Part shown: piece by piece, positions 17,555 through 29,107 of the stretch
Numbering within the stretch: position 1 is the first letter of the stretch
Layout: each line of letters opens with the position of its first letter
Source of the DNA: Pseudomonadota bacterium
GTDB taxonomy: Bacteria > Desulfobacterota > Desulfobulbia > Desulfobulbales > SURF-16
Assembly (NCBI GenBank): GCA_018822545.1
Contig: JAHJKA010000022.1
Coordinates: 62,001-126,000 of the forward strand
DNA: 64,000 nt
Direction of reading: 5' to 3'
Program-made: the position numbers and the translations under genes
Notes under the pieces: model-generated
Told to the model about the DNA's origin: nothing
Databases searched by the model: none
The model's input: only the letters and a program-made list of their open reading frames with translations

Positions 17555-20497
17555 TCAAATAGTTAAAATATGTTCATCACCCTGCCCCTCCTTGTTACAC
17601 TGCGGAATGGTTAAGGCAAGGGGGCAGCGCACAGTCTGACCGGCCTTATTTTGAAAAAGAAGATACCTGTTTTCCAAGGCAAAAAGAAAGAGATCGCGGG
17701 TTATTTCCACATCATGGCGGCAATAGGTGATGATCTTGTCGATACGCCCTTCTTTATACCATTTGAGGGCCTGCAGACCATCAGCGCTTTTTGCGACCTC
17801 AAGGGTCTTTGCCGCCAAGCGGTCAAGACTTAAGCGGTAGCCCAGACGGCTCTTGACCTCCTCCAGGAGATCGATGGTGGGCAGGAGATGGAGTTTGGCA
17901 TCGCCATAAGCCGATAACACCTGATTATCAAAACGTTTATTATTGAAGCCCACCACCAGTTCCCGACTGCAGAGATAGTCGAGAAGCTCCACCATCTCTC
18001 CCTCCCGAAAGACGAGAAAATCATCAAGCTCACCGTCATAAACCACGGCCACTGATACTCCCATGCGCTCGGCGTGGTGCCAGCCGCCCACCTCAGCAGC
18101 GGAACGCTGGGTCTCCACATCAAACACCGCCCATTTCCGGGGCAGGACCGTTGTAACAATCTCGCCCTCTGGAGCTGTGGCAAGGGGCAGGACCTCTTCC
18201 TGGTCTTGATGGATCGCCTTGCGCACCACATCGCCAGCCAGCAGTGCCTCCAGAACAATTCGGGCCGCCTCCTTGTCGATGGGCCGATTGCCGGAACCGC
18301 ATTTAGGCGAGTGAACACACGACGGGCACCCCGTCTCGCAGGGGCAAGAGACAATGGCCGTGTGGGCGGCCAGCAGCAGTTCGTCGATGCGGCTGAAGGC
18401 CTCACGGCACAGGCCAATGCCACCGGGGTAGCCGTCATAGATAAAAATGGCCGAGCATTGCAGTTGGGGGTGAAAGGGATAGGAGATGCCGCCAATATCG
18501 TTGCGATCACACAGCACGGTGAGCGGAAAAACACCGATGGCAGCATGTTCCACGGCATGGATACCGCCCATAAAATGGGCCCTATCGGCCTGCATGCAGG
18601 CCTCAAGGCCTTCTGGGATCTCAAACCAGAGACCATGGGTCTCAAAGACCTGGGGCGGCAAGTCCAGGCTTTCGCTGCTCATGGTCTTCTGACCGCGAAT
18701 GAGCTTGCGCTGAAAACCGGTAACCTGATCGGTCACCTTGAGCCGCCCGAAACAGGCCTTGATATTGCGCACCTCCACCTCAGAAAAAACCTCAAGAATC
18801 TCGGTTTCCTTGGTGGCCATGGCCCGGGTAAAATAATTGGCCTCTTTGCGCCGCACCAGAACCTGACCGCCATCCAGATCAAGCTCCACCACCTCCCAGG
18901 TCTCGCCATGATGAAGATAGAGGGCGCCGGGATGGCATTCCTTAAAACACCGTCCCGAATCAATATCACCGAGACGTTCGTTGCCACCGATCTTCCTGAT
19001 CACAAAGGGCTGGCCGCTGCCGCGCAGATCCACCTGACGGTGAGGATATTTTCGGGCCGTGAAAAAGCGTTTGCCAGTTTTGGCCTGCAGGAGCTGGCCC
19101 CCGGCACACAGCGCATCAACCGCCTTTTTTACCGCAGGCATTGCCAGCAAGGGTTCATCCCTGTGCAGAGGCAACTCAGCCGCGGCACAGATCAAGTGTC
19201 GGGCGCTGATCTCCTCATTATCGGGATTAAGAACAGCCGCCTCCACCTTCCGCCGAAAAAACTCCTGGGGGTTCTTGAGAAAATAGTGATCCAGGGCATC
19301 CTCCTGCCCCACCATGATAATCAGGCTTTCCTGCTGCCTGCGTCCCACCCGACCACCGCGCTGCCAGGTGGACATGATGGAGCCGGGATAACCCACCATG
19401 ATGCAGATATCAAGAGATCCGATATCAATGCCAAGCTCCAGGGCCGAGGTGGTCACCACCCCGTAAAGCTCGCCGCTTGCCAGCTTATGCTCGATCTCCC
19501 GGCGCTCCTCAGGCAAAAAACCAGCCCGGTAGGCCGTGAGCTTATTTTTCAAGTCCCCCAAGCGTTCAGCCGTCCACATGGCCACCAGTTCGGTGATCTT
19601 GCGCGACTGGGTATAAACGATGGTGCGCAGGCCGCGCTTTAAGGCCGCCTCCAGCATCTGACTGGCAGCAAGAGCCGCCCCATCCCAGGGATTAAAAAAG
19701 ACAAAATGACGAGGGGCCTGCGGGGCGCCACTGTCGGTAATCACCCGGGGGCTGCGGCCGATAAGGCCCTGACCGAGCTCGCCTGGATTGCCGACAGTGG
19801 CCGAAAAAAGCAGAAATTGCGGGTTACTGCCATAAAGAGCACAGATGCGCAGCAGACGCCTTAACACCCAGGCCATGTGGGAACCAAAAACGCCGCGATA
19901 GGAGTGCACCTCGTCAATGACCACATAACGCAGGTTGCTGAAAAATTCCGCCCATTTCTCATGGTAGCCTAAGAAGGAGAGATGGAGCATCTCCGGGTTG
20001 GAGATGATGATGTTGGCTGGGTTTTCGCGCAACTTCTTGCGCCGATAGCTTGAGGTGTCGCCATCACAGCCCGCCGCCGTAAAACTTCTGCCCTCGGGCA
20101 GTTGGGCGGCAATCTCTGCCAAGCGCCGGAGCTGATCCTGGGCCAAGGCCTTTAAAGGAAAGAGATAAAGGGCCCGGGTGGCAGGTTCCTTCATGATCTT
20201 TTCAATCACCGGCATATTATAGATCAAACTCTTGCCGCTGGCCGTGGGGGTCGCCACCAGAACATCCTCACCCTGGCGGATGAAATCCATGGCCCGGGCC
20301 TGATGGCTGTACAGCCTCGCCGCCCCTTCTTGGGCCATGATCACGACCAGTTCGGCAGACAGAGGCTGGACCAACTCTCTATACTCAGCCTCCTGGCCAG
20401 CCAGAAACTCATGGTGCACCACCTGCGGCCCGAAACGCTCGGAACCCTTGAGGGCGTCCAGATACTCGGCGACATTATGTTGGTTGGCTTGACTCAT
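17555..20497 (-). CDS. MrfA-like DEAD/DEAH helicase fused to a DnaQ-like exonuclease
   Basis: The 980-residue protein begins with a superfamily 2 helicase. Walker A is ATPTASGKS (82-90), DEVH is at 195-198, FSATVGNP is motif III and GRVGRR is motif VI. A DUF1998-type Zn-binding Cys group follows (CPCETGCPSCVHSPKCGSGN, about 715-735). The last 190 residues form a DnaQ-like 3'-5' exonuclease: DVE near 790, Asp in NNKRFDNQ and YCRHD near 927 (YxxxD). In Bacillus the helicase MrfA (YprA) and exonuclease MrfB (YprB) are separate partners in repairing mitomycin-type DNA damage. This single polypeptide looks like their fusion. Repair of interstrand or bulky adducts is the inferred role. Confidence 0.88.
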   Translation of the reverse strand: MSQANQHNVAEYLDALKGSERFGPQVVHHEFLAGQEAEYRELVQPLSAELVVIMAQEGAARLYSHQARAMDFIRQGEDVLVATPTASGKSLIYNMPVIEKIMKEPATRALYLFPLKALAQDQLRRLAEIAAQLPEGRSFTAAGCDGDTSSYRRKKLRENPANIIISNPEMLHLSFLGYHEKWAEFFSNLRYVVIDEVHSYRGVFGSHMAWVLRRLLRICALYGSNPQFLLFSATVGNPGELGQGLIGRSPRVITDSGAPQAPRHFVFFNPWDGAALAASQMLEAALKRGLRTIVYTQSRKITELVAMWTAERLGDLKNKLTAYRAGFLPEERREIEHKLASGELYGVVTTSALELGIDIGSLDICIMVGYPGSIMSTWQRGGRVGRRQQESLIIMVGQEDALDHYFLKNPQEFFRRKVEAAVLNPDNEEISARHLICAAAELPLHRDEPLLAMPAVKKAVDALCAGGQLLQAKTGKRFFTARKYPHRQVDLRGSGQPFVIRKIGGNERLGDIDSGRCFKECHPGALYLHHGETWEVVELDLDGGQVLVRRKEANYFTRAMATKETEILEVFSEVEVRNIKACFGRLKVTDQVTGFQRKLIRGQKTMSSESLDLPPQVFETHGLWFEIPEGLEACMQADRAHFMGGIHAVEHAAIGVFPLTVLCDRNDIGGISYPFHPQLQCSAIFIYDGYPGGIGLCREAFSRIDELLLAAHTAIVSCPCETGCPSCVHSPKCGSGNRPIDKEAARIVLEALLAGDVVRKAIHQDQEEVLPLATAPEGEIVTTVLPRKWAVFDVETQRSAAEVGGWHHAERMGVSVAVVYDGELDDFLVFREGEMVELLDYLCSRELVVGFNNKRFDNQVLSAYGDAKLHLLPTIDLLEEVKSRLGYRLSLDRLAAKTLEVAKSADGLQALKWYKEGRIDKIITYCRHDVEITRDLFLFALENRYLLFQNKAGQTVRCPLALTIPQCNKEGQGDEHILTI

Positions 20498-20622
20498 CTA
20501 CACCTTAAATAGCACAAGAGAAAGGACACTCTCCTCCCTTACCATATTCACCCCGCCCGGCAAAGAGCGGCGGCGACCAAAAGAGACGCCCCACTTTTTT
20601 CTTGCCAAGCTCCCTGTTTTCG

Positions 20623-21573
20623 ATGATCAATAAAATCATGAATGATAGCAAAAACTTCAGCCCTTCTCCCACTGCTTGCCTTGCCATTGACGGCAGCAAA
20701 ATAAAATCGATCCGGGAAATGAAGAAACTCACCCAGCTTTACGTTGCCACCTGCCTGGGGGTGACGGTGGATACCATTTCACGCTGGGAGAATGGCCGAT
20801 CCCCTAATATCAAGTTCGAGAATGCCGAAAAGCTGGCCGAGGTGCTGGAGATCAGCCTGTCTGACATCGAGGACAAGACTGGCAAAGAAGCTTACCAGAT
20901 CCCCACCCCCGAGCCGACTGCGCCAGCACTCGCCTCCCAGAGACTAAAATCGTGGTGGCCCCTCCTCCCGGTGGGCCTCCTCCTGATCCTGACCTATTTC
21001 CAGTTTTCCGCCCCCCACGACACCACCCCCCAGCTCAGTGCCGTCCGCCTCCTGCCCCAGCATGCCTCGGCCCACCAGCCCTTCCCGGTGCTGATCAAGG
21101 TCCAGGCCACGAGCCCGCTGCCGCTGTCGTTCATCGTGAAGGAATTTCTGCCGCCGGGCTGTCAGGTTCTGGCCAGCCAACCCGCCCTGGTCGCCTCGCA
21201 GCAGGCAAGGGAGGCCATCAAATGGCTGAGCAGCGCCGAGGACGACACCCCCCTCTTTTTTGCCTACCTGGCCCGCACCGCCCCAGACCTGGCCGAGGGC
21301 GAGCAGCTCCTCTTCCAGGGCGAGGTCATGGTCCAGGGCCAGCAGACGAGGCGCCTGGCCATCACCGGCAACAACACCTTGGCCATCACCAATTTCCACT
21401 GGGCCGACAGCAACCAAGACCAGCGCATTGATGATGCGGAAATCCTCACCATCTTCAACTCCTTTGCGGCCCTCCAGGCCCTGGGCGTCGATATTGACGA
21501 AATCCGCCAGATATGGGCCGGCCAGGGCTATCGCTGGGACAGTGACGCCGCAAAATTTGTCGTGGTCCCGTAA
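20623..21573 (+). CDS. Membrane-anchored HTH regulator with periplasmic domain and EF-hand
   Basis: The 316-residue protein has an N-terminal XRE/Cro-type helix-turn-helix (about 25-80: TQLYVATCLGVTVDTISRWE). Then come a Pro-rich linker, one membrane helix (WWPLLPVGLLLILTYF, about 105-122) and a periplasmic beta domain with FLPPGCQVLASQPAL and IKWLSS. It ends in a dockerin/EF-hand-like loop DSNQDQRIDDAE. It would be a one-component regulator linking a periplasmic signal, perhaps Ca2+, to DNA binding. The periplasmic domain resembles the protein encoded 24 bp downstream. There is no clear SD; ATG at 20638 or a TTG at 20602 are alternatives. It is divergent from the helicase gene. Confidence 0.75.
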   Translation: MINKIMNDSKNFSPSPTACLAIDGSKIKSIREMKKLTQLYVATCLGVTVDTISRWENGRSPNIKFENAEKLAEVLEISLSDIEDKTGKEAYQIPTPEPTAPALASQRLKSWWPLLPVGLLLILTYFQFSAPHDTTPQLSAVRLLPQHASAHQPFPVLIKVQATSPLPLSFIVKEFLPPGCQVLASQPALVASQQAREAIKWLSSAEDDTPLFFAYLARTAPDLAEGEQLLFQGEVMVQGQQTRRLAITGNNTLAITNFHWADSNQDQRIDDAEILTIFNSFAALQALGVDIDEIRQIWAGQGYRWDSDAAKFVVVP

Positions 21574-21597: not shown

Positions 21598-22035
21598 ATG
21601 AACCGCCTGCCCATCCGCTCCCTCCTCTGCCTCACCCTCTTTCTCCTGGCCCTGCCCTGCCAGACCAGCCTGGGCGCCGGCCAGGAGATCGCGGCCCGCT
21701 ACAGCCAACCGCGCGGCACCCAGATCAGCTGGCAGATCACCATTCCCTCGCCACCGCCAGCCGCGGTCATTGTCAGCCAATCCATCCCGCCGGGCACGGT
21801 GATCAAAAAGTCCTCACCCGCTTACAATAGTTACGACCAAAGCACCGGCACGGCCAAATGGCTGCTCACCAATGTCCAGGCCGGCACCTTCAAGATGTCC
21901 ATGGAGCTTGCCACCCCCATCCGCAAAAAAGGGGAAATCCACGGCAAAATCATCTTCCAAGACCAACGCGCCCAAGCCATTGCCGAGGGCTTCATGACCC
22001 AGCAGAGCAAAAAAAAGGCCATTGAGGGCTGTTAA
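21598..22035 (+). CDS. Secreted protein with regulator-like beta domain, C-terminal EGC
   Basis: The 145-residue protein has a signal peptide (MNRLPIRSLLCLTLFLLALP, cleavage after LGA). One beta domain follows, with SQSIPPGTVIKKSSPAY and AKWLLTNVQAGTFKMS. The spacing of PPG, SxPA and KWL matches the periplasmic domain of the upstream regulator. The C-terminus is KKKAIEGC, and the next three proteins also end in EGC. SD TTAGGAG lies before the ATG. Function unknown; it may be a ligand or competitor of the regulator. Confidence 0.75.
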   Translation: MNRLPIRSLLCLTLFLLALPCQTSLGAGQEIAARYSQPRGTQISWQITIPSPPPAAVIVSQSIPPGTVIKKSSPAYNSYDQSTGTAKWLLTNVQAGTFKMSMELATPIRKKGEIHGKIIFQDQRAQAIAEGFMTQQSKKKAIEGC

Positions 22036-22097
22036 GCAACCCTCCCCTCCCGCCACCATCCCTGCCATTTTTCCCTGCCCCACCACCATGTCTATCC

Positions 22098-22255
22098 GAT
22101 ACCGGGTAGATACCAGCGCGTCATCCCACCCGATACCAGTCGATGTCCTCTATTATCTTTTGGCGAAAGTCCTATCTTGAAGTCAGAAGCACGAAGCAGT
22201 CACCCCACGATTAAAAAATTACGGGGTGCCGCCCTGCTGCCCGCCTTAAGCGGGC
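22098..22255 (+). promoter_or_regulatory. Leader of the small EGC genes: GATACC repeats and two hairpins
   Basis: The 250-bp gap upstream of 22286 holds three GATACC copies (22098, 22109, 22132), at 11- and 23-bp offsets that put them on one helix face. A stem CACCCC / GGGGTG spans 22201-22228. A stem GCCCGC / GCGGGC with loop CTTAA spans 22239-22255. These could be operators and a structured 5' UTR. No known riboswitch was recognised. Confidence 0.35.
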
Positions 22256-22285
22256 GGTACATCTTCCATCAAGAGGAGTGACGTC

Positions 22286-22510
22286 ATGAAGAAATTGATA
22301 AGCACAGTAACCGCAGTAACCTTTATTCTTGCCCTGACCCTGGCCACTCAAGCCGCCACCGAGGTCGAATGCGAGGTCATGGCAAGCAAGGAAAACGCGG
22401 TGGTAATGAACTGTGGCGACCAGGCCACCACCATGGATGTGGGCACCAAGATCACCCTGCAGGCCCCGGTCAACACCAAGAAAAAGGCAATGGTAATCGA
22501 AGGCTGCTAG
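22286..22510 (+). CDS. Small secreted EGC-terminal protein (paralog 1)
   Basis: The 74-residue protein has a signal peptide (MKKLISTVTAVTFILALTLA, cleavage after ATQA). A compact beta domain follows, with two Cys in ECEVMASKENAVVMNCG and a VGTKITLQ strand. The end is KKKAMVIEGC. It is paralogous to the next protein; spacing between the two Cys (14 residues) and the strand pattern are conserved. SD AGAGGAG is present. A small OB- or SH3-like barrel is plausible. Function unknown. Confidence 0.75.
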   Translation: MKKLISTVTAVTFILALTLATQAATEVECEVMASKENAVVMNCGDQATTMDVGTKITLQAPVNTKKKAMVIEGC

Positions 22511-22592
22511 TCTGCCATCCAGGCCCTGAAATAAATACCATGCGGCCGACTAACCAGTCTGGCGGCCCATCATATCGACGAGGAGTGATGAC

Positions 22593-22790
22593 ATGAAAAA
22601 ACTGATAACTACTTTTGCAACACTGACATTTGTCATCGGCCTGAGCCTGACAACGGCTGCGGCCAAAACCATCGACTGCGAGATCATCAGTTCCAAGGGA
22701 GATACCGTGACCCTAAATTGCGGCAAAAAGGCAAATACCTTCAAGGTAGGCGATTCAGTCCAGGTTAAAAAGAAGCCCGAAGGCTGCTAG
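22593..22790 (+). CDS. Small secreted EGC-terminal protein (paralog 2)
   Basis: The 65-residue protein has a signal peptide (MKKLITTFATLTFVIGLSLT). The mature part has DCEIISSKGDTVTLNCG and FKVGDSVQVKKKPEGC, aligning residue by residue with the preceding protein. SD GAGGAG lies before the ATG. Three Cys are in the mature protein: two internal and one C-terminal. Function unknown. The pair looks like a local duplication. Confidence 0.75.
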   Translation: MKKLITTFATLTFVIGLSLTTAAAKTIDCEIISSKGDTVTLNCGKKANTFKVGDSVQVKKKPEGC

Positions 22791-22899
22791 CCTTGGCCAA
22801 CCCGTCGTCGTCGTATTCGAGCGACGGCGGGCAGGCTCTCTCGCCCTGCCCTACCAGCACAAGGGGCACCTCTCCATACAACCACCTTAGAGGTACACC

Positions 22900-24276
22900 A
22901 TGAAACTCAGACTGTGTTACAAACCAACAAGGCCAACCCTTTCAACGTTTATGGCCAAACTTCTTCTCTTGACTGCCTTTCTCCCCATGGTAGTCCTCAA
23001 CAACCCGGCACTGGCCAGCACCGGTCTGAGCATGACCACCGGCTTTGACAACAACCTCATTCACGCCACCCGACCAGACTCCCGTTATCTGGAGATTCTG
23101 GTCACCACCCCTGATCTCGACAGCTTCCACCGCCAGCAACAGCGTCTGCCCCTGAACGTTGCCCTGGTGCTTGACCGTTCCGGCTCCATGGCCCATCAGG
23201 ACAAGCTGCGCCATGTCAAGAAAGCTGCCCTGGCCATTCTAGATAAACTGCGGCCGGGCGATCGTTTTTCCCTTATAACCTATGACGATTACGCCACGGT
23301 TCTCATTGCCTCGCAGCCGGTGGAGGGTCTCTCCCACGCCCGCTCGTTGATCAACTCCATCCACCCCGGCGGCAGCACCAACATGCAGGCCGGCCTCGAG
23401 GAGGGCTACCGGCAACTCCGCCGTTACAGCTCACCCCGTTCCACCAACCGTGTCCTGCTCTTTTCTGACGGCCAGGCCAATGTCGGCATCACCTCTCCAC
23501 AACGCCTGGGGAATATTGCCCTTGATGAGGCTGGGAACAGCATCTCGCTCAGCACCTTTGGTGTTGGTTGCGACTTTAATGAGAACCTGATGGCTGCCCT
23601 GGCAGAAAATGGCTTGGGCATGTATTACTTCATCGATTCCTCAGGCAGCATTGCCGAAATCCTGGCCCGTGAGTTCAGAGCGGTGGAGCAGGTGGTGGCC
23701 ACCGACATCAGAATCGAGGTGCAGTTTGCTGACGATATCAACATCGCTCAGGTGATGGCCAACCGCTATGAAATAAAAAAGAACAGAGTCATCATGTATG
23801 GCGGCGACCTCTCCGCTGGTGAGCGACGCCGCTTCCAGATTCGCATTCACCCCCCCGCCCATAAGAGCGGCAATTTTGAGGCTGGCGGCGTCAAGATGTC
23901 GTATCGGCCGGCAGGCCAGGATTATCTCGAGTGCCGCCAGGAGCCCATGCAACTCCGCTATCTGACCGATGCCCGCACCATCGAAAACGGGCGCAATGAC
24001 GCCATCAGCGAACGCTCCAGCATCTTTGAGGCCCATCACGCCCGCAGTCAGGCCGCAGATGCTGTGGACCGCGGCGATCTGCGTAAGGCCCAGGCCATTC
24101 TCGCCCAGGCCCAACAAGACATGGACCACAAAGCCAAAAACAGCAAGCGCCTGCAAAAAGAGCTCTCCGAGATCGACAGCTATGCCGCCGCCCTGCGGAA
24201 ACCCCTGAATAACATGGAACGCGGCCGCATCCAGAAATCTGTGAAATATGACAGCTATGTTCTGGAAGGCTGCTGA
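22900..24276 (+). CDS. Secreted von Willebrand factor A domain protein, C-terminal EGC
   Basis: The 458-residue protein has an N-terminal signal (hydrophobic about 20-42, cleavage near ALA). A VWA domain follows (about 85-260) with an intact MIDAS DRSGSMAH, TNMQAG and FSDGQANVG. Then a beta region and an Ala/Gln-rich helical part with tetratricopeptide-like AADAVDRGDLRKAQAILAQA. It ends SVKYDSYVLEGC. VWA proteins of this build bind ligands through Mg2+ at the cell surface. It is the fourth consecutive gene whose product ends EGC, suggesting shared export or anchoring. SD AGAGGT lies before the ATG, and a strong terminator follows the stop codon. Confidence 0.88.
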   Translation: MKLRLCYKPTRPTLSTFMAKLLLLTAFLPMVVLNNPALASTGLSMTTGFDNNLIHATRPDSRYLEILVTTPDLDSFHRQQQRLPLNVALVLDRSGSMAHQDKLRHVKKAALAILDKLRPGDRFSLITYDDYATVLIASQPVEGLSHARSLINSIHPGGSTNMQAGLEEGYRQLRRYSSPRSTNRVLLFSDGQANVGITSPQRLGNIALDEAGNSISLSTFGVGCDFNENLMAALAENGLGMYYFIDSSGSIAEILAREFRAVEQVVATDIRIEVQFADDINIAQVMANRYEIKKNRVIMYGGDLSAGERRRFQIRIHPPAHKSGNFEAGGVKMSYRPAGQDYLECRQEPMQLRYLTDARTIENGRNDAISERSSIFEAHHARSQAADAVDRGDLRKAQAILAQAQQDMDHKAKNSKRLQKELSEIDSYAAALRKPLNNMERGRIQKSVKYDSYVLEGC

Positions 24277-24307: not shown

Positions 24308-24351
24308 ACCTGGGAAGGGCGTATTGCCAACGCTCTTCCCAGGTTTTTTTT
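24308..24351 (+). terminator. Strong Rho-independent terminator closing the EGC gene group
   Basis: A 14-bp stem, 24308-24321 with 24331-24344 and a single G-T pair, has a 9-nt loop and is followed by eight T. Confidence 0.95.
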
Positions 24352-24495
24352 ATTTTCCACGTCGCCTGTCATGCCATTTTTTCTCATCCTTGGTTCAGGG
24401 AATAGATTTTTTTCCTATGCAGATCATGTATGATAGCAATTACTATCTACATCTATTCAGGTCACTGCCAACAAACTTTAGGACATATAAAAAAT

Positions 24496-26250: not shown

Positions 26251-29022
26251 TTACGAATCAATCATCTTTCTGAGAAAAACATAGGCCTCGCCACTGCTCT
26301 TCCGGTCAGAGGCGCTACAGGCCTTTAACCATTTATCTTTTGATTCCAAGGCTTCCTTAATACCATATCTGCCCAAAGCCCGATATGATTCAAATTGCTC
26401 TTCCGTGAAGAACTGATCAGCCGTAGTCTCGTGCGGAAAGTCAGAGTTCTTTTGTTTGTAATTGAGAATGGGTGAAATTTCTTTACCATTCATTGTATTT
26501 TTATAGAGGATAATCCAGTTCGGCGGATCATTCTTTTCATCTTGTTCAGGATAGACTATTTCCCCTACTGCTAATTTATCCACGGTGAAGCCCTTTTCAT
26601 CCTTCTTTCTAAGACCAGCTAACGAAATTTTTACTTTTATCCCCTCGTCCACATAAGCATTTCTCACCGAGCTGTTAAAGGAATCGAAAGAATGTTCAGG
26701 ATCACATTCTGAGTCGGACACAATCAAAACTCTGACCCGCCTTCGCAAGAGTGGAATAATACCAAGATTATCGCCACTATGCCCACCGTCACTCAGGTAA
26801 ATTTCTTTATTATCCGAGGTGGTGTATCCCACCAACTCCTGGGACATTCTTTCAGTTGCCGAATGCACAATTTTTTTTCTGAGTTTGTTTATGTTCTTTT
26901 CGCATTCATAGGTATCAGTTTTGTCAAATCCTCTTAAATCAGGAACCGTTGGAGTTAAGGTCACCACCTTCTGCTCCCCCTTCTTGATAGCGTCAAGCAC
27001 TCGTTCTTGTACCAAAACTTCACCCAGTGTCTCCTTCACCTCTTGATTCTTAAAATTTGGCAACCAGTAGCCCAAACGCACCCCAAAAATGGTGCATAGA
27101 AAAGAGGTTACAAGTGAGGTGTTCATTCCCATAACAGAAGTCACTGCCGCTCCGCTGATAGTCATGACCCGGGCCAGCTTCAATGGGCCGCCATCAACCA
27201 TATAATCTTCTGTTTGAATATATCCAGTTTCCTGGGAACCGACATAAAGGCGGGAAAAGGTGAAAATATCGGATTTGCGATTAAAAGCTTTCAGATTTTT
27301 TGATGCTGTAAGATTCAAAGTAGCATTAAGCAAGAGATAAGGTCCACAGTCCCAGCACTTATCATCTTCACCGACATCTCCATGCACCTCAGACAACTTC
27401 ATCTCCAGATTGTCTCGCTTCCAACTTTCATCGTGTGAAATGGTACACAGAAACATCTCAGCCAAGCGATCTCTATAGAAATAATGGGACGAAATTTTAT
27501 TGACGTCCACCAACCAATTAAATCCTCCTAGGACAAGGGCGGTCACAAGAAACACCCCCATAAGCCAAAGCTGTTCGTAGTCATCTAACCTTCCAGGCCA
27601 TTTGCCATCAAACAGCACTTCAGCTAAAAAATTACCTACAAAGAGTACTGCAAGAAACAAAAACAATCCGGTGGTTAACCCCAGTAATCCTTCCCTGTAT
27701 TTCGAGGGGAGAGTGAACGTCGTCTTCTCAGAAGAAATCTTGCCCTGACTTGCTATGAAATATCGCAACCCTGTGCCAATGGCGACAAGAATCAAAATCG
27801 AGTATTTGCCGACCCCTATAGTCATAAAGCCCGGAAGCACAGCCAAAATGAGGGCAAAAAACAAAGTCGCCAACAAAATTCCAGCACACACATGGGATTT
27901 AGATCGTCCTTGCCTGTGCCATGTTTCTCTTTTTAACGCGTAGTACGAGTAGAAAAACCAAAAGCCCAAAAGCGCTCCCATCACGAAGAGTGTCGGCACA
28001 ACAAGAATTGCCCCATACCTGAACTCCTTCACATCCCACAAGACGGCTCCGAATGTCCCTGCATAGAGAGCAATAATCAACCAAAATATGATTCGATAAA
28101 CAAAACTCTTATACGAAACGCTTTCTTCTCGCCCACAGCTTTCTTGTTTAAAAAAGTATCTCCGTCTTAAATACGTAAACACTACCCCCAAACAAAAAAA
28201 CACAACGATCGTTCCCCAGTACCATGACCTGCTGAGATTTTTAAATTGTGTAAAAGGAAACGCCATATATGCAGCAATTTCTCGCCCTGTTTCCTCATAG
28301 GACTTCTTGCTGAAAACACCCGGGCTCTCTTTAGGATACTCAACCTCTCCATTCTTCTTCTGGCTGACCGCTTCAATTTGATTAACCCGTGTACTTTTGT
28401 CCTGCGGCGATCCCAATTGTGGAGCCACAGATGAGACTACCATCATGTACAATGATGTTATCAGTGTAACTATGAGAGCGAACCAAAGAAGAGACATGAA
28501 GGTGGAAAGAAATACCGCGCCTATCGCCCGCATTACATTGGAACTAAAATGCAGTGCTCGTGGAGCAAGATAGCTTGCCCGCACCCGCATGTGGTGCATC
28601 TGTGCCTGCCCATACTTGTCAAAAGGCTCTTCCTTGCCACTTTCCATTCTTTCCTCACGGAAAGGAAAGTGTTCCCACTGAGTTGAAAACTGCGCCTCTT
28701 TGTTTGTGCCTGAAAACAACGAAGACAGACAGGCGCCGATATAGCCGCCCCCGGAGACAGTGCTGAGATAGTCAACCAAAGGCAGCACTCTTTTTTCTGA
28801 CAGCCCCTGCAACACTCCAATATTTGTGGTCGCCGACCTAATCCCGCCACCCGAGAGCGCTAAGCCTATCAGGTTATCACATGAGGATTGTTGATCATTA
28901 TGACAAGGAGGGAGGCCTAGCCTCTTTCTTCTCTCATTGATTACAGCCAGTTCCTTGCTTTTCACGAGTTTAAATTTTTCATGATCAATCACTGTGAGCA
29001 AAGGGCTATCGTGTACATCCAT
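26251..29022 (-). CDS. Patatin-like phospholipase with large membrane insertion
   Basis: The 923-residue protein has a patatin acyl-hydrolase core. The oxyanion loop is GLALSGGGIRSATTN near residue 55, the nucleophile is the Ser of STVSGGGYIGACL near 88, and the Asp is in YLSDGGHSGDNLG about 650 residues later. Between these lie roughly eight hydrophobic helices (about 155-520), an unusual membrane insertion. MDVHDSPLLT at 29022 is preferred because CAGGTGA precedes it; an upstream ATG is at 29058. The gene is visibly richer in A and T than its neighbours. It is preceded by a GEMM riboswitch. It probably hydrolyses membrane phospholipids. Confidence 0.85.
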   Translation of the reverse strand: MDVHDSPLLTVIDHEKFKLVKSKELAVINERRKRLGLPPCHNDQQSSCDNLIGLALSGGGIRSATTNIGVLQGLSEKRVLPLVDYLSTVSGGGYIGACLSSLFSGTNKEAQFSTQWEHFPFREERMESGKEEPFDKYGQAQMHHMRVRASYLAPRALHFSSNVMRAIGAVFLSTFMSLLWFALIVTLITSLYMMVVSSVAPQLGSPQDKSTRVNQIEAVSQKKNGEVEYPKESPGVFSKKSYEETGREIAAYMAFPFTQFKNLSRSWYWGTIVVFFCLGVVFTYLRRRYFFKQESCGREESVSYKSFVYRIIFWLIIALYAGTFGAVLWDVKEFRYGAILVVPTLFVMGALLGFWFFYSYYALKRETWHRQGRSKSHVCAGILLATLFFALILAVLPGFMTIGVGKYSILILVAIGTGLRYFIASQGKISSEKTTFTLPSKYREGLLGLTTGLFLFLAVLFVGNFLAEVLFDGKWPGRLDDYEQLWLMGVFLVTALVLGGFNWLVDVNKISSHYFYRDRLAEMFLCTISHDESWKRDNLEMKLSEVHGDVGEDDKCWDCGPYLLLNATLNLTASKNLKAFNRKSDIFTFSRLYVGSQETGYIQTEDYMVDGGPLKLARVMTISGAAVTSVMGMNTSLVTSFLCTIFGVRLGYWLPNFKNQEVKETLGEVLVQERVLDAIKKGEQKVVTLTPTVPDLRGFDKTDTYECEKNINKLRKKIVHSATERMSQELVGYTTSDNKEIYLSDGGHSGDNLGIIPLLRRRVRVLIVSDSECDPEHSFDSFNSSVRNAYVDEGIKVKISLAGLRKKDEKGFTVDKLAVGEIVYPEQDEKNDPPNWIILYKNTMNGKEISPILNYKQKNSDFPHETTADQFFTEEQFESYRALGRYGIKEALESKDKWLKACSASDRKSSGEAYVFLRKMIDS

Positions 29023-29107
29023 AATGTCACCTGCACAAGTTGTTCGAGTAAGAATCAAGGAAATCCTATCAAGTGTTGATATGTGTTCTTGCCCTCCTAA
29101 AACAACA

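Follow-up and report, generated by a model that had tools for sequence, protein, structure and literature searches.

A lysine-rich C-terminal tail, ending in Glu-Gly-Cys, was found on at least a dozen unrelated families of exported proteins in sulfur-metabolising bacteria. The tail is predicted to be flexible and Lys/Arg-rich, ending in [A]-[I/L/V]-E-G-Cys-COOH, with the consensus KKKAIEGC. The best explanation of the whole is an undescribed modular tag, the thiol of which would be engaged, in each genome, by one periplasmic partner common to the tagged proteins. This explanation leads the others and is held tentatively, at somewhat below an even chance.

The gene cluster and the tails of its products

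The window is the whole stretch of 64,000 nucleotides that was analysed. The features of the tagged cluster are listed below.

20602..21573, + strand: XRE-type HTH regulator with one membrane helix, a periplasmic beta domain and the EF-hand-like motif HWADSNQDQRIDDAEIL (PF01381, E 1.4e-13; helix and motif by eye)
21598..22035, + strand: exported beta-sandwich protein, 145 aa, tail SKKKAIEGC (sequence; homologues)
22009..22032, + strand: tag KKKAIEGC of the beta protein (sequence)
22286..22510, + strand: small exported ExtJ-like protein 1, 74 aa, tail KKKAMVIEGC (NF040942, E 1.1e-8, 35.4 bits)
22478..22507, + strand: tag KKKAMVIEGC of ExtJ-like protein 1 (sequence)
22593..22790, + strand: small exported ExtJ-like protein 2, 65 aa, tail VKKKPEGC (NF040942, E 6.5e-12, 45.7 bits)
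22767..22787, + strand: tag KKKPEGC of ExtJ-like protein 2 (sequence)
22900..24276, + strand: exported VWA-domain protein, 458 aa, tail KYDSYVLEGC (PF00092, E 4.1e-18)
24259..24273, + strand: tag VLEGC of the VWA protein (sequence)
24309..24356, + strand: hairpin and T-run resembling an intrinsic terminator, closing the cluster, CCTGGGAAGGGCG..CGCTCTTCCCAGGTTTTTTTT (by eye)

The consecutive + strand open reading frames starting at 21598, 22286, 22593 and 22900 each encode an N-terminal signal-peptide-like stretch and end in Glu-Gly-Cys followed by the stop codon. This had been reported in the sequence-only reading, and the coordinates proved exact when the tails were read from the sequence. 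The description of the products as a beta protein, two small paralogues and a VWA protein was borne out by the beta-sandwich model, the ExtJ matches and the PF00092 match. The VWA domain scored 66.7 bits, above the Pfam cutoff of 23.8 bits; the domain search with the beta protein gave a DUF11 match only, which was sub-threshold. The two small paralogues both matched the NCBIfam ExtJ family, with scores below its curated cutoff of 52.5 bits, and the alignment of ExtJ-like protein 1 reached the last position of the NF040942 model. The likeness of codons at the EGC end also held: GAAGGCTGC was shared by three of the four genes, while GAGGGCTGT was present in the first. No membrane helix follows the cysteine, as had been noted, because the stop codon comes directly after it. 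The feature is bigger than that reading had described, since EGC is the end of a Lys-rich tail that is not limited to the cluster.

The structure of the tail was predicted for the beta protein and for ExtJ. The beta protein was modelled as a beta sandwich with a pLDDT of about 80–92 in the core; residues 124–145 were almost all below 50, suggesting a disordered tail. Its fold had no confident match in the PDB (best E 0.011, TM about 0.4). The ExtJ model was weak, with a mean pLDDT of 60, and its last residues were below 50. A PDB sequence search with the ExtJ profile gave weak matches only, mostly to antibody signal peptides.

The cluster is flanked by the XRE regulator, directly upstream with a 24 bp gap, and by an acetolactate synthase gene. 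On the − strand of the window, a large DEAD-box helicase gene lies at 17555-20497, the C-terminal part of its product resembling an RNase H-like nuclease by eye. Also on the − strand, 26251-29058 encodes a 935-aa protein with a patatin-like GGGIRSA motif, an STVSGGG serine motif and several membrane helices (by eye).

Occurrence and conservation of the tail

Tail patterns were scanned in the own genome, in relatives and in GTDB, with reversed-pattern searches as chance controls. The pattern GARGGNTGYTRR (EGC plus a stop-like triplet) gave 24 matches in the own genome against 7 for the reversed pattern; 5 of the 24 were TGG and not stops. Outside the cluster, 15 EGC ends had a true stop, and three of these belonged to convincing exported proteins, all ending in AIEGC. 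One is a triheme cytochrome c7 (..HPAKKKAIEGC), the gene of which follows adjacent ResB/CcsA cytochrome-maturation genes. The others are two ExtJ proteins: the gene of one (..KAKAIEGC) lies directly behind a TlpA-like thioredoxin gene, and that of the other (..TQKKAIEGC) lies near a second XRE regulator, of the family found at the cluster. These three proteins indicated that an ending like KKKAIEGC reaches beyond the cluster. One own-genome ExtJ copy (C27) scored 60 bits on NF040942.

In 58 relatives, KAIEGC-stop occurred 35 times and its reversed control once. An exact scan of 84,980 species genomes (GTDB) for KKAIEGC-stop gave 89 stretches, almost all from Desulfobulbaceae, other Desulfobacterota, Nitrospirota (Thermodesulfovibrionales) and Thermodesulfatator. 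The ending sat almost only on exported proteins. The few matches in Massilia, Puia, Sulfurimonas and Verrucomicrobia were short or non-exported frames, at about chance level. The reversed-pattern controls ruled out chance as the source of the ending.

The ExtJ family was surveyed in 297 genomes of the phylum with the family model rather than the tail pattern. All 25 strong matches read (L157-L181) ended in [LVIMP]-[EQ]-G-C, and the terminal cysteine was invariant, although no Cys pattern was used for selection. The model itself contains the tail, which biases the survey matches somewhat; the exceptions are L168, L173 and L180, where the model match ends before the tail, so the tail did not draw those proteins in. 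A tagged cytochrome matched the last positions of the model, which are its tail part, and the weaker, non-ExtJ matches L184 and L185 ended otherwise. In Nitrospirota, the terminal cysteine is often the sole cysteine of ExtJ, so that no internal disulfide is possible in those proteins.

The cargos of the tag include ExtJ, c7 and class III (c3) cytochromes, and SoxA/TsdA-type cytochromes. The tag was also read on FKBP, on Lys-rich disordered proteins and on the beta protein, on BON proteins and BON lipoproteins, and on coiled-coil lipoproteins, of which some have a c7 domain. A further cargo is the SbtA precursor (TIGR04081), the gene of which is read through at in-frame TGA codons. The SbtA-family gene at L114:717-1085 has two in-frame TGA codons in GSG-TGA-GG repeats and a KKAIEGC tail, and similar genes were observed in L118 and L128.

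Homologues in relatives might have ended differently at random, which had been named as an outcome that would speak against the sequence-only reading. The opposite was seen: the ending is kept in homologues of ExtJ, the beta protein, the VWA protein and the cytochromes, and it is present on exported families unrelated to these. The beta-protein homologues in L090, L145 and L152 keep KKAIEGC in proteins that are 61-65% identical, and the one in L214 ends in KRRGLEGC. The VWA homologue in the genome G329 (L214) ends in KYRKYLLEGC.

E-G-C-stop was written in 31 codon spellings among 144 proteins, which indicates conservation at the protein level. Coincidence, or one DNA end spread by gene conversion within the cluster, could be argued from the paralogy of two of the four products and from the end shared by three genes; recurrence across families and two phyla, the 31 spellings and lineage-specific variants contradict it. 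Refuted by the control counts in relatives, the GTDB scan and the ExtJ survey, this explanation retains hardly any probability.

Agreement within genomes was examined at position −4, which was left free by scanning for [FLIMV]EGC, or for any EGC in the own genome. This residue was shared with the ExtJ of the same genome by 26 of 29 other tagged proteins (Fisher p 1.3e-6), and the agreement persisted after collapse to genus × cargo (p 0.005). Position −4 is Ile in most families and Leu in genus g19. In G329 (L226; another family), the module of the window recurs as XRE regulator, beta protein, ExtJ-like protein and VWA protein, and every tail is LEGC. Tagged cargos end in KKIEGC in G054 and in RKIEGC in G182. 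Such agreement is what a shared reader would produce. The independent switches are few, chiefly that of genus g19, so the agreement was treated as good and not conclusive evidence. The breadth of cargos, the ExtJ survey, the agreement at position −4 and the LEGC module together argue that the tag is a real modular feature under protein-level selection.

Gene neighbours and possible role of the terminal thiol

A TlpA-like gene lies directly upstream of tagged ExtJ on the same strand at 25 loci in three Desulfobulbales families. At nine loci in Nitrospirota, a gene for a TsuA-type thiosulfate transporter lies directly upstream of a tagged gene, and several of these loci have DsrE-like genes nearby. 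At these TsuA loci the body of the tagged protein is swapped, being ExtJ or a Lys-rich disordered protein, while the tail stays. In many lineages the neighbours of ExtJ are unrelated housekeeping genes; no single neighbour is therefore universal, and the adjacency of TlpA and TsuA to ExtJ may have causes that do not involve the tail. Neither the gene neighbours nor PF04143 co-occurrence in the 58 genomes identified a dedicated reader or enzyme for the tag. Transporters of the PF04143 (YeeE/TsuA) type were present in 57 of the 58, which makes their co-occurrence uninformative as evidence for a partner.

In some Nitrospirota transporters of the TsuA/YeeE type (L081:2143-3240 and matching stretches in L082, L104, L125 and L149), two Cys positions are occupied by in-frame TGA codons, LQRGRY-TGA-MNSAF and AVAGG-TGA-TVGH. 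In the counterpart in L121 the first site, at least, is Cys (QRGRYCMNSAF), with the frame open throughout. The stretches with two TGA codons probably encode a double-selenocysteine transporter.

The regulator of the window forms a family with homologues in L009, L074, L090, L117, L142, L145, L152 and L226; these XRE regulators span the membrane and combine a periplasmic beta domain with the EF-hand-like motif HWADxNxDxxIxDxEIL. Members of this family repeatedly adjoin tagged genes, as in L090, L145, L152, L117, L142 and L226. Compared by hhalign, the periplasmic domain of the regulator resembled the tagged beta protein with a probability of 82.6 and an E of 1e-5. The regulator probably controls the cluster in response to the state of its own envelope products.

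What the partner is, how the thiol reacts and what the regulator does are proposed from sequence evidence. After Sec export, the tail would hang off a folded domain or an N-terminally lipidated protein, with its terminal thiol free. A periplasmic partner common to the tagged proteins of each genome would recognise the last residues and engage the thiol. The most likely route would be an exchange of thiol or persulfide with either a TlpA-type thioredoxin or a sulfur-transfer apparatus. The tagged proteins would be docked on this partner, or charged by it with sulfur or selenium. This common-partner thiol tail is favoured by the modular, flexible and basic nature of the tail, the free thiol, the kept peptide motif and the thiol/sulfur neighbours. 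The FKBP, BON and disordered cargos, which have no obvious sulfur role, speak against this explanation. A shared export step, which the sequence-only reading had offered beside a common modification or crosslink, is unlikely: a Sec-type signal peptide is present on every one of these proteins, and several of the tagged proteins (L131, L144, L110, L207, L240 and L259) are in addition lipoproteins at their N-terminus.

The nearest rival is a sulfur- or selenium-carrier arm on each protein, in which the terminal Cys would carry a persulfide as in SoxY and the Lys run would draw anionic sulfur, with no shared docking partner. It is consistent with the TsuA and DsrE-like genes that adjoin tagged ExtJ in Nitrospirota, with the SoxA/TsdA-type cytochromes among the cargos and with the sulfur-metabolising lineages that carry the tag. 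The ext operons also point this way: ExtJ occurs there with ExtH, a rhodanese-like lipoprotein (PMC6148476), and extI, in the same cluster as extJ, is required for selenite/tellurite reduction (PMC5877670). The carrier arm leaves unexplained the strict A-I-E-G and the tag on a peptidyl-prolyl isomerase, BON lipoproteins and disordered proteins. A C-terminal selenocysteine form of the tag had 9 matches in 297 genomes, and none was on an exported protein among the 8 loci read, which also counts against this rival. On balance it is unlikely. A Gly-Cys end was also read, in two ext operons, on the product of the gene that occupies the place of ExtH, which counts in favour of the common-partner explanation; these genes (L186:4016-6538 and L188:10062-11429) encode a lipoprotein signal and end in GDAVVGC and SSGGGGC.

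The spread of the tag over unrelated exported cargos, as with known sorting tags, could instead reflect covalent anchoring, the terminal Cys being lipidated or joined to the envelope and the Lys run lying at the anionic membrane, similar to a polybasic-plus-prenyl-Cys end or a processed MYXO-CTERM. The lipobox-like [ILV]-x-G-C and the polybasic run before it fit this explanation. It is weakened by E or Q at position −3, before Gly, unlike in lipoboxes, and by the cargos that are already N-terminal lipoproteins; a membrane helix is also missing. Anchoring was judged less likely still than the carrier arm. Cytochromes and ExtJ are prominent cargos, so the thiol and Lys run might bind a metal ion, heme or mineral surface on redox proteins. 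Many cargos are not redox proteins, and metal binding would not need a strict A-I-E-G; such a ligand role is improbable.

Comparison with known systems and implications

The tag was compared with known systems. ExtJ (NF040942) is known from the extHIJKLMNOPQS selenite/tellurite cluster of Geobacter, and the two small window proteins and their paralogues are ExtJ-like. The window copies have the signal peptide, the small beta domain and the [EQ]GC end of all strong members; they lie outside an ext cluster, with no ext genes alongside, as do several other ExtJ genes. The difference is that the tail is not ExtJ's own and is present on many unrelated families. In the MYXO-CTERM/myxosortase system (PMC11980579), the Cys has to be followed by a membrane helix and an Arg-rich end. 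Like MYXO-CTERM, the tag is a short signature at the C-terminus of diverse exported proteins and has an invariant Cys, but its Cys is the last residue and the basic run comes before it. With the stop following directly, in place of a transmembrane helix and Arg-rich cluster, membership of MYXO-CTERM was rejected.

SoxY has a C-terminal GGCGG sulfur-carrier arm with a reactive Cys that serves periplasmic sulfur chemistry. The tag is likewise predicted to be a flexible C-terminal arm with a Cys, and I-G-G-C of SoxY is close to I-E-G-C of the tag. SoxY is one family with its own partners and a GGCGG end, whereas the tag is on many folds, ends in EGC and stops at the Cys. KDEL-type retention peptides consist of the last four residues with a free carboxylate on unrelated exported proteins, in the eukaryotic ER and with no Cys. 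The tag is likewise a short end with a free carboxylate on unrelated exported proteins, but it has a Cys and is bacterial. Bacterial lipoproteins have an N-terminal lipobox, [LVI][ASTVI][GAS]C; in the tag the Cys is last, with E or Q standing two positions ahead of it. Some cargos do possess a lipobox, separately, at their N-terminus.

An EG-Cys end on proteins with a signal peptide is reminiscent of motifs in exported MNIO products, and some cargos are SbtA precursors; a RiPP-like modification of the terminal Cys in the cytoplasm before export was considered on these grounds. MNIO RiPPs such as bufferins and TglA (TglA: PMC9016710) are ribosomal peptides in which the modified Cys stands in an EG-x-C setting or the Cys is C-terminal. 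The MNIO enzyme PF05114 was absent from all 58 relatives, where positive controls were detected, and MNIO/RiPP modification was rejected for these genomes. The cargos are large and folded, and no radical-SAM neighbour was seen by eye near the SbtA loci read. Such a modification is very improbable.

No mention of an EGC, IEGC or KKKAIEGC motif was found in the open-access papers searched, and no family of the tail itself was among the NCBIfam and Pfam matches of the tagged proteins scanned. The ExtJ family is known; the tail as a motif common to unrelated proteins is undescribed in the literature searched. The tag lacks the defining features of MYXO-CTERM, SoxY, MNIO RiPPs and lipoprotein signals, and in this sense appears to be a new class of motif. 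Its mechanism may prove a variant of known thiol or anchoring chemistry.

A C-terminal tag shared among exported proteins of unrelated families is usually the sign of a system for sorting or modification, and LPXTG, PEP-CTERM and MYXO-CTERM were known before their enzymes. The tag sets itself apart by having no membrane helix and a free Cys end, by its occurrence in at least two phyla, and by its presence on cytochromes, ExtJ and a selenoprotein RiPP precursor. The tag may belong to a dedicated tagging pathway of Gram-negative sulfur-metabolising bacteria, which is possible but distinctly doubtful. In such a pathway a Lys-rich AIEGC without a helix would be recognised in the periplasm and conjugated or docked via its thiol, one system serving cytochromes, chaperones, lipoproteins, selenoprotein precursors and ExtJ. 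The tag occurs in cultured Desulfobulbales, Desulfogranum for example, so tests are feasible. A single-Cys mutation would be a simple handle on ExtJ function and on extracytoplasmic thiol/sulfur handling in these anaerobes.
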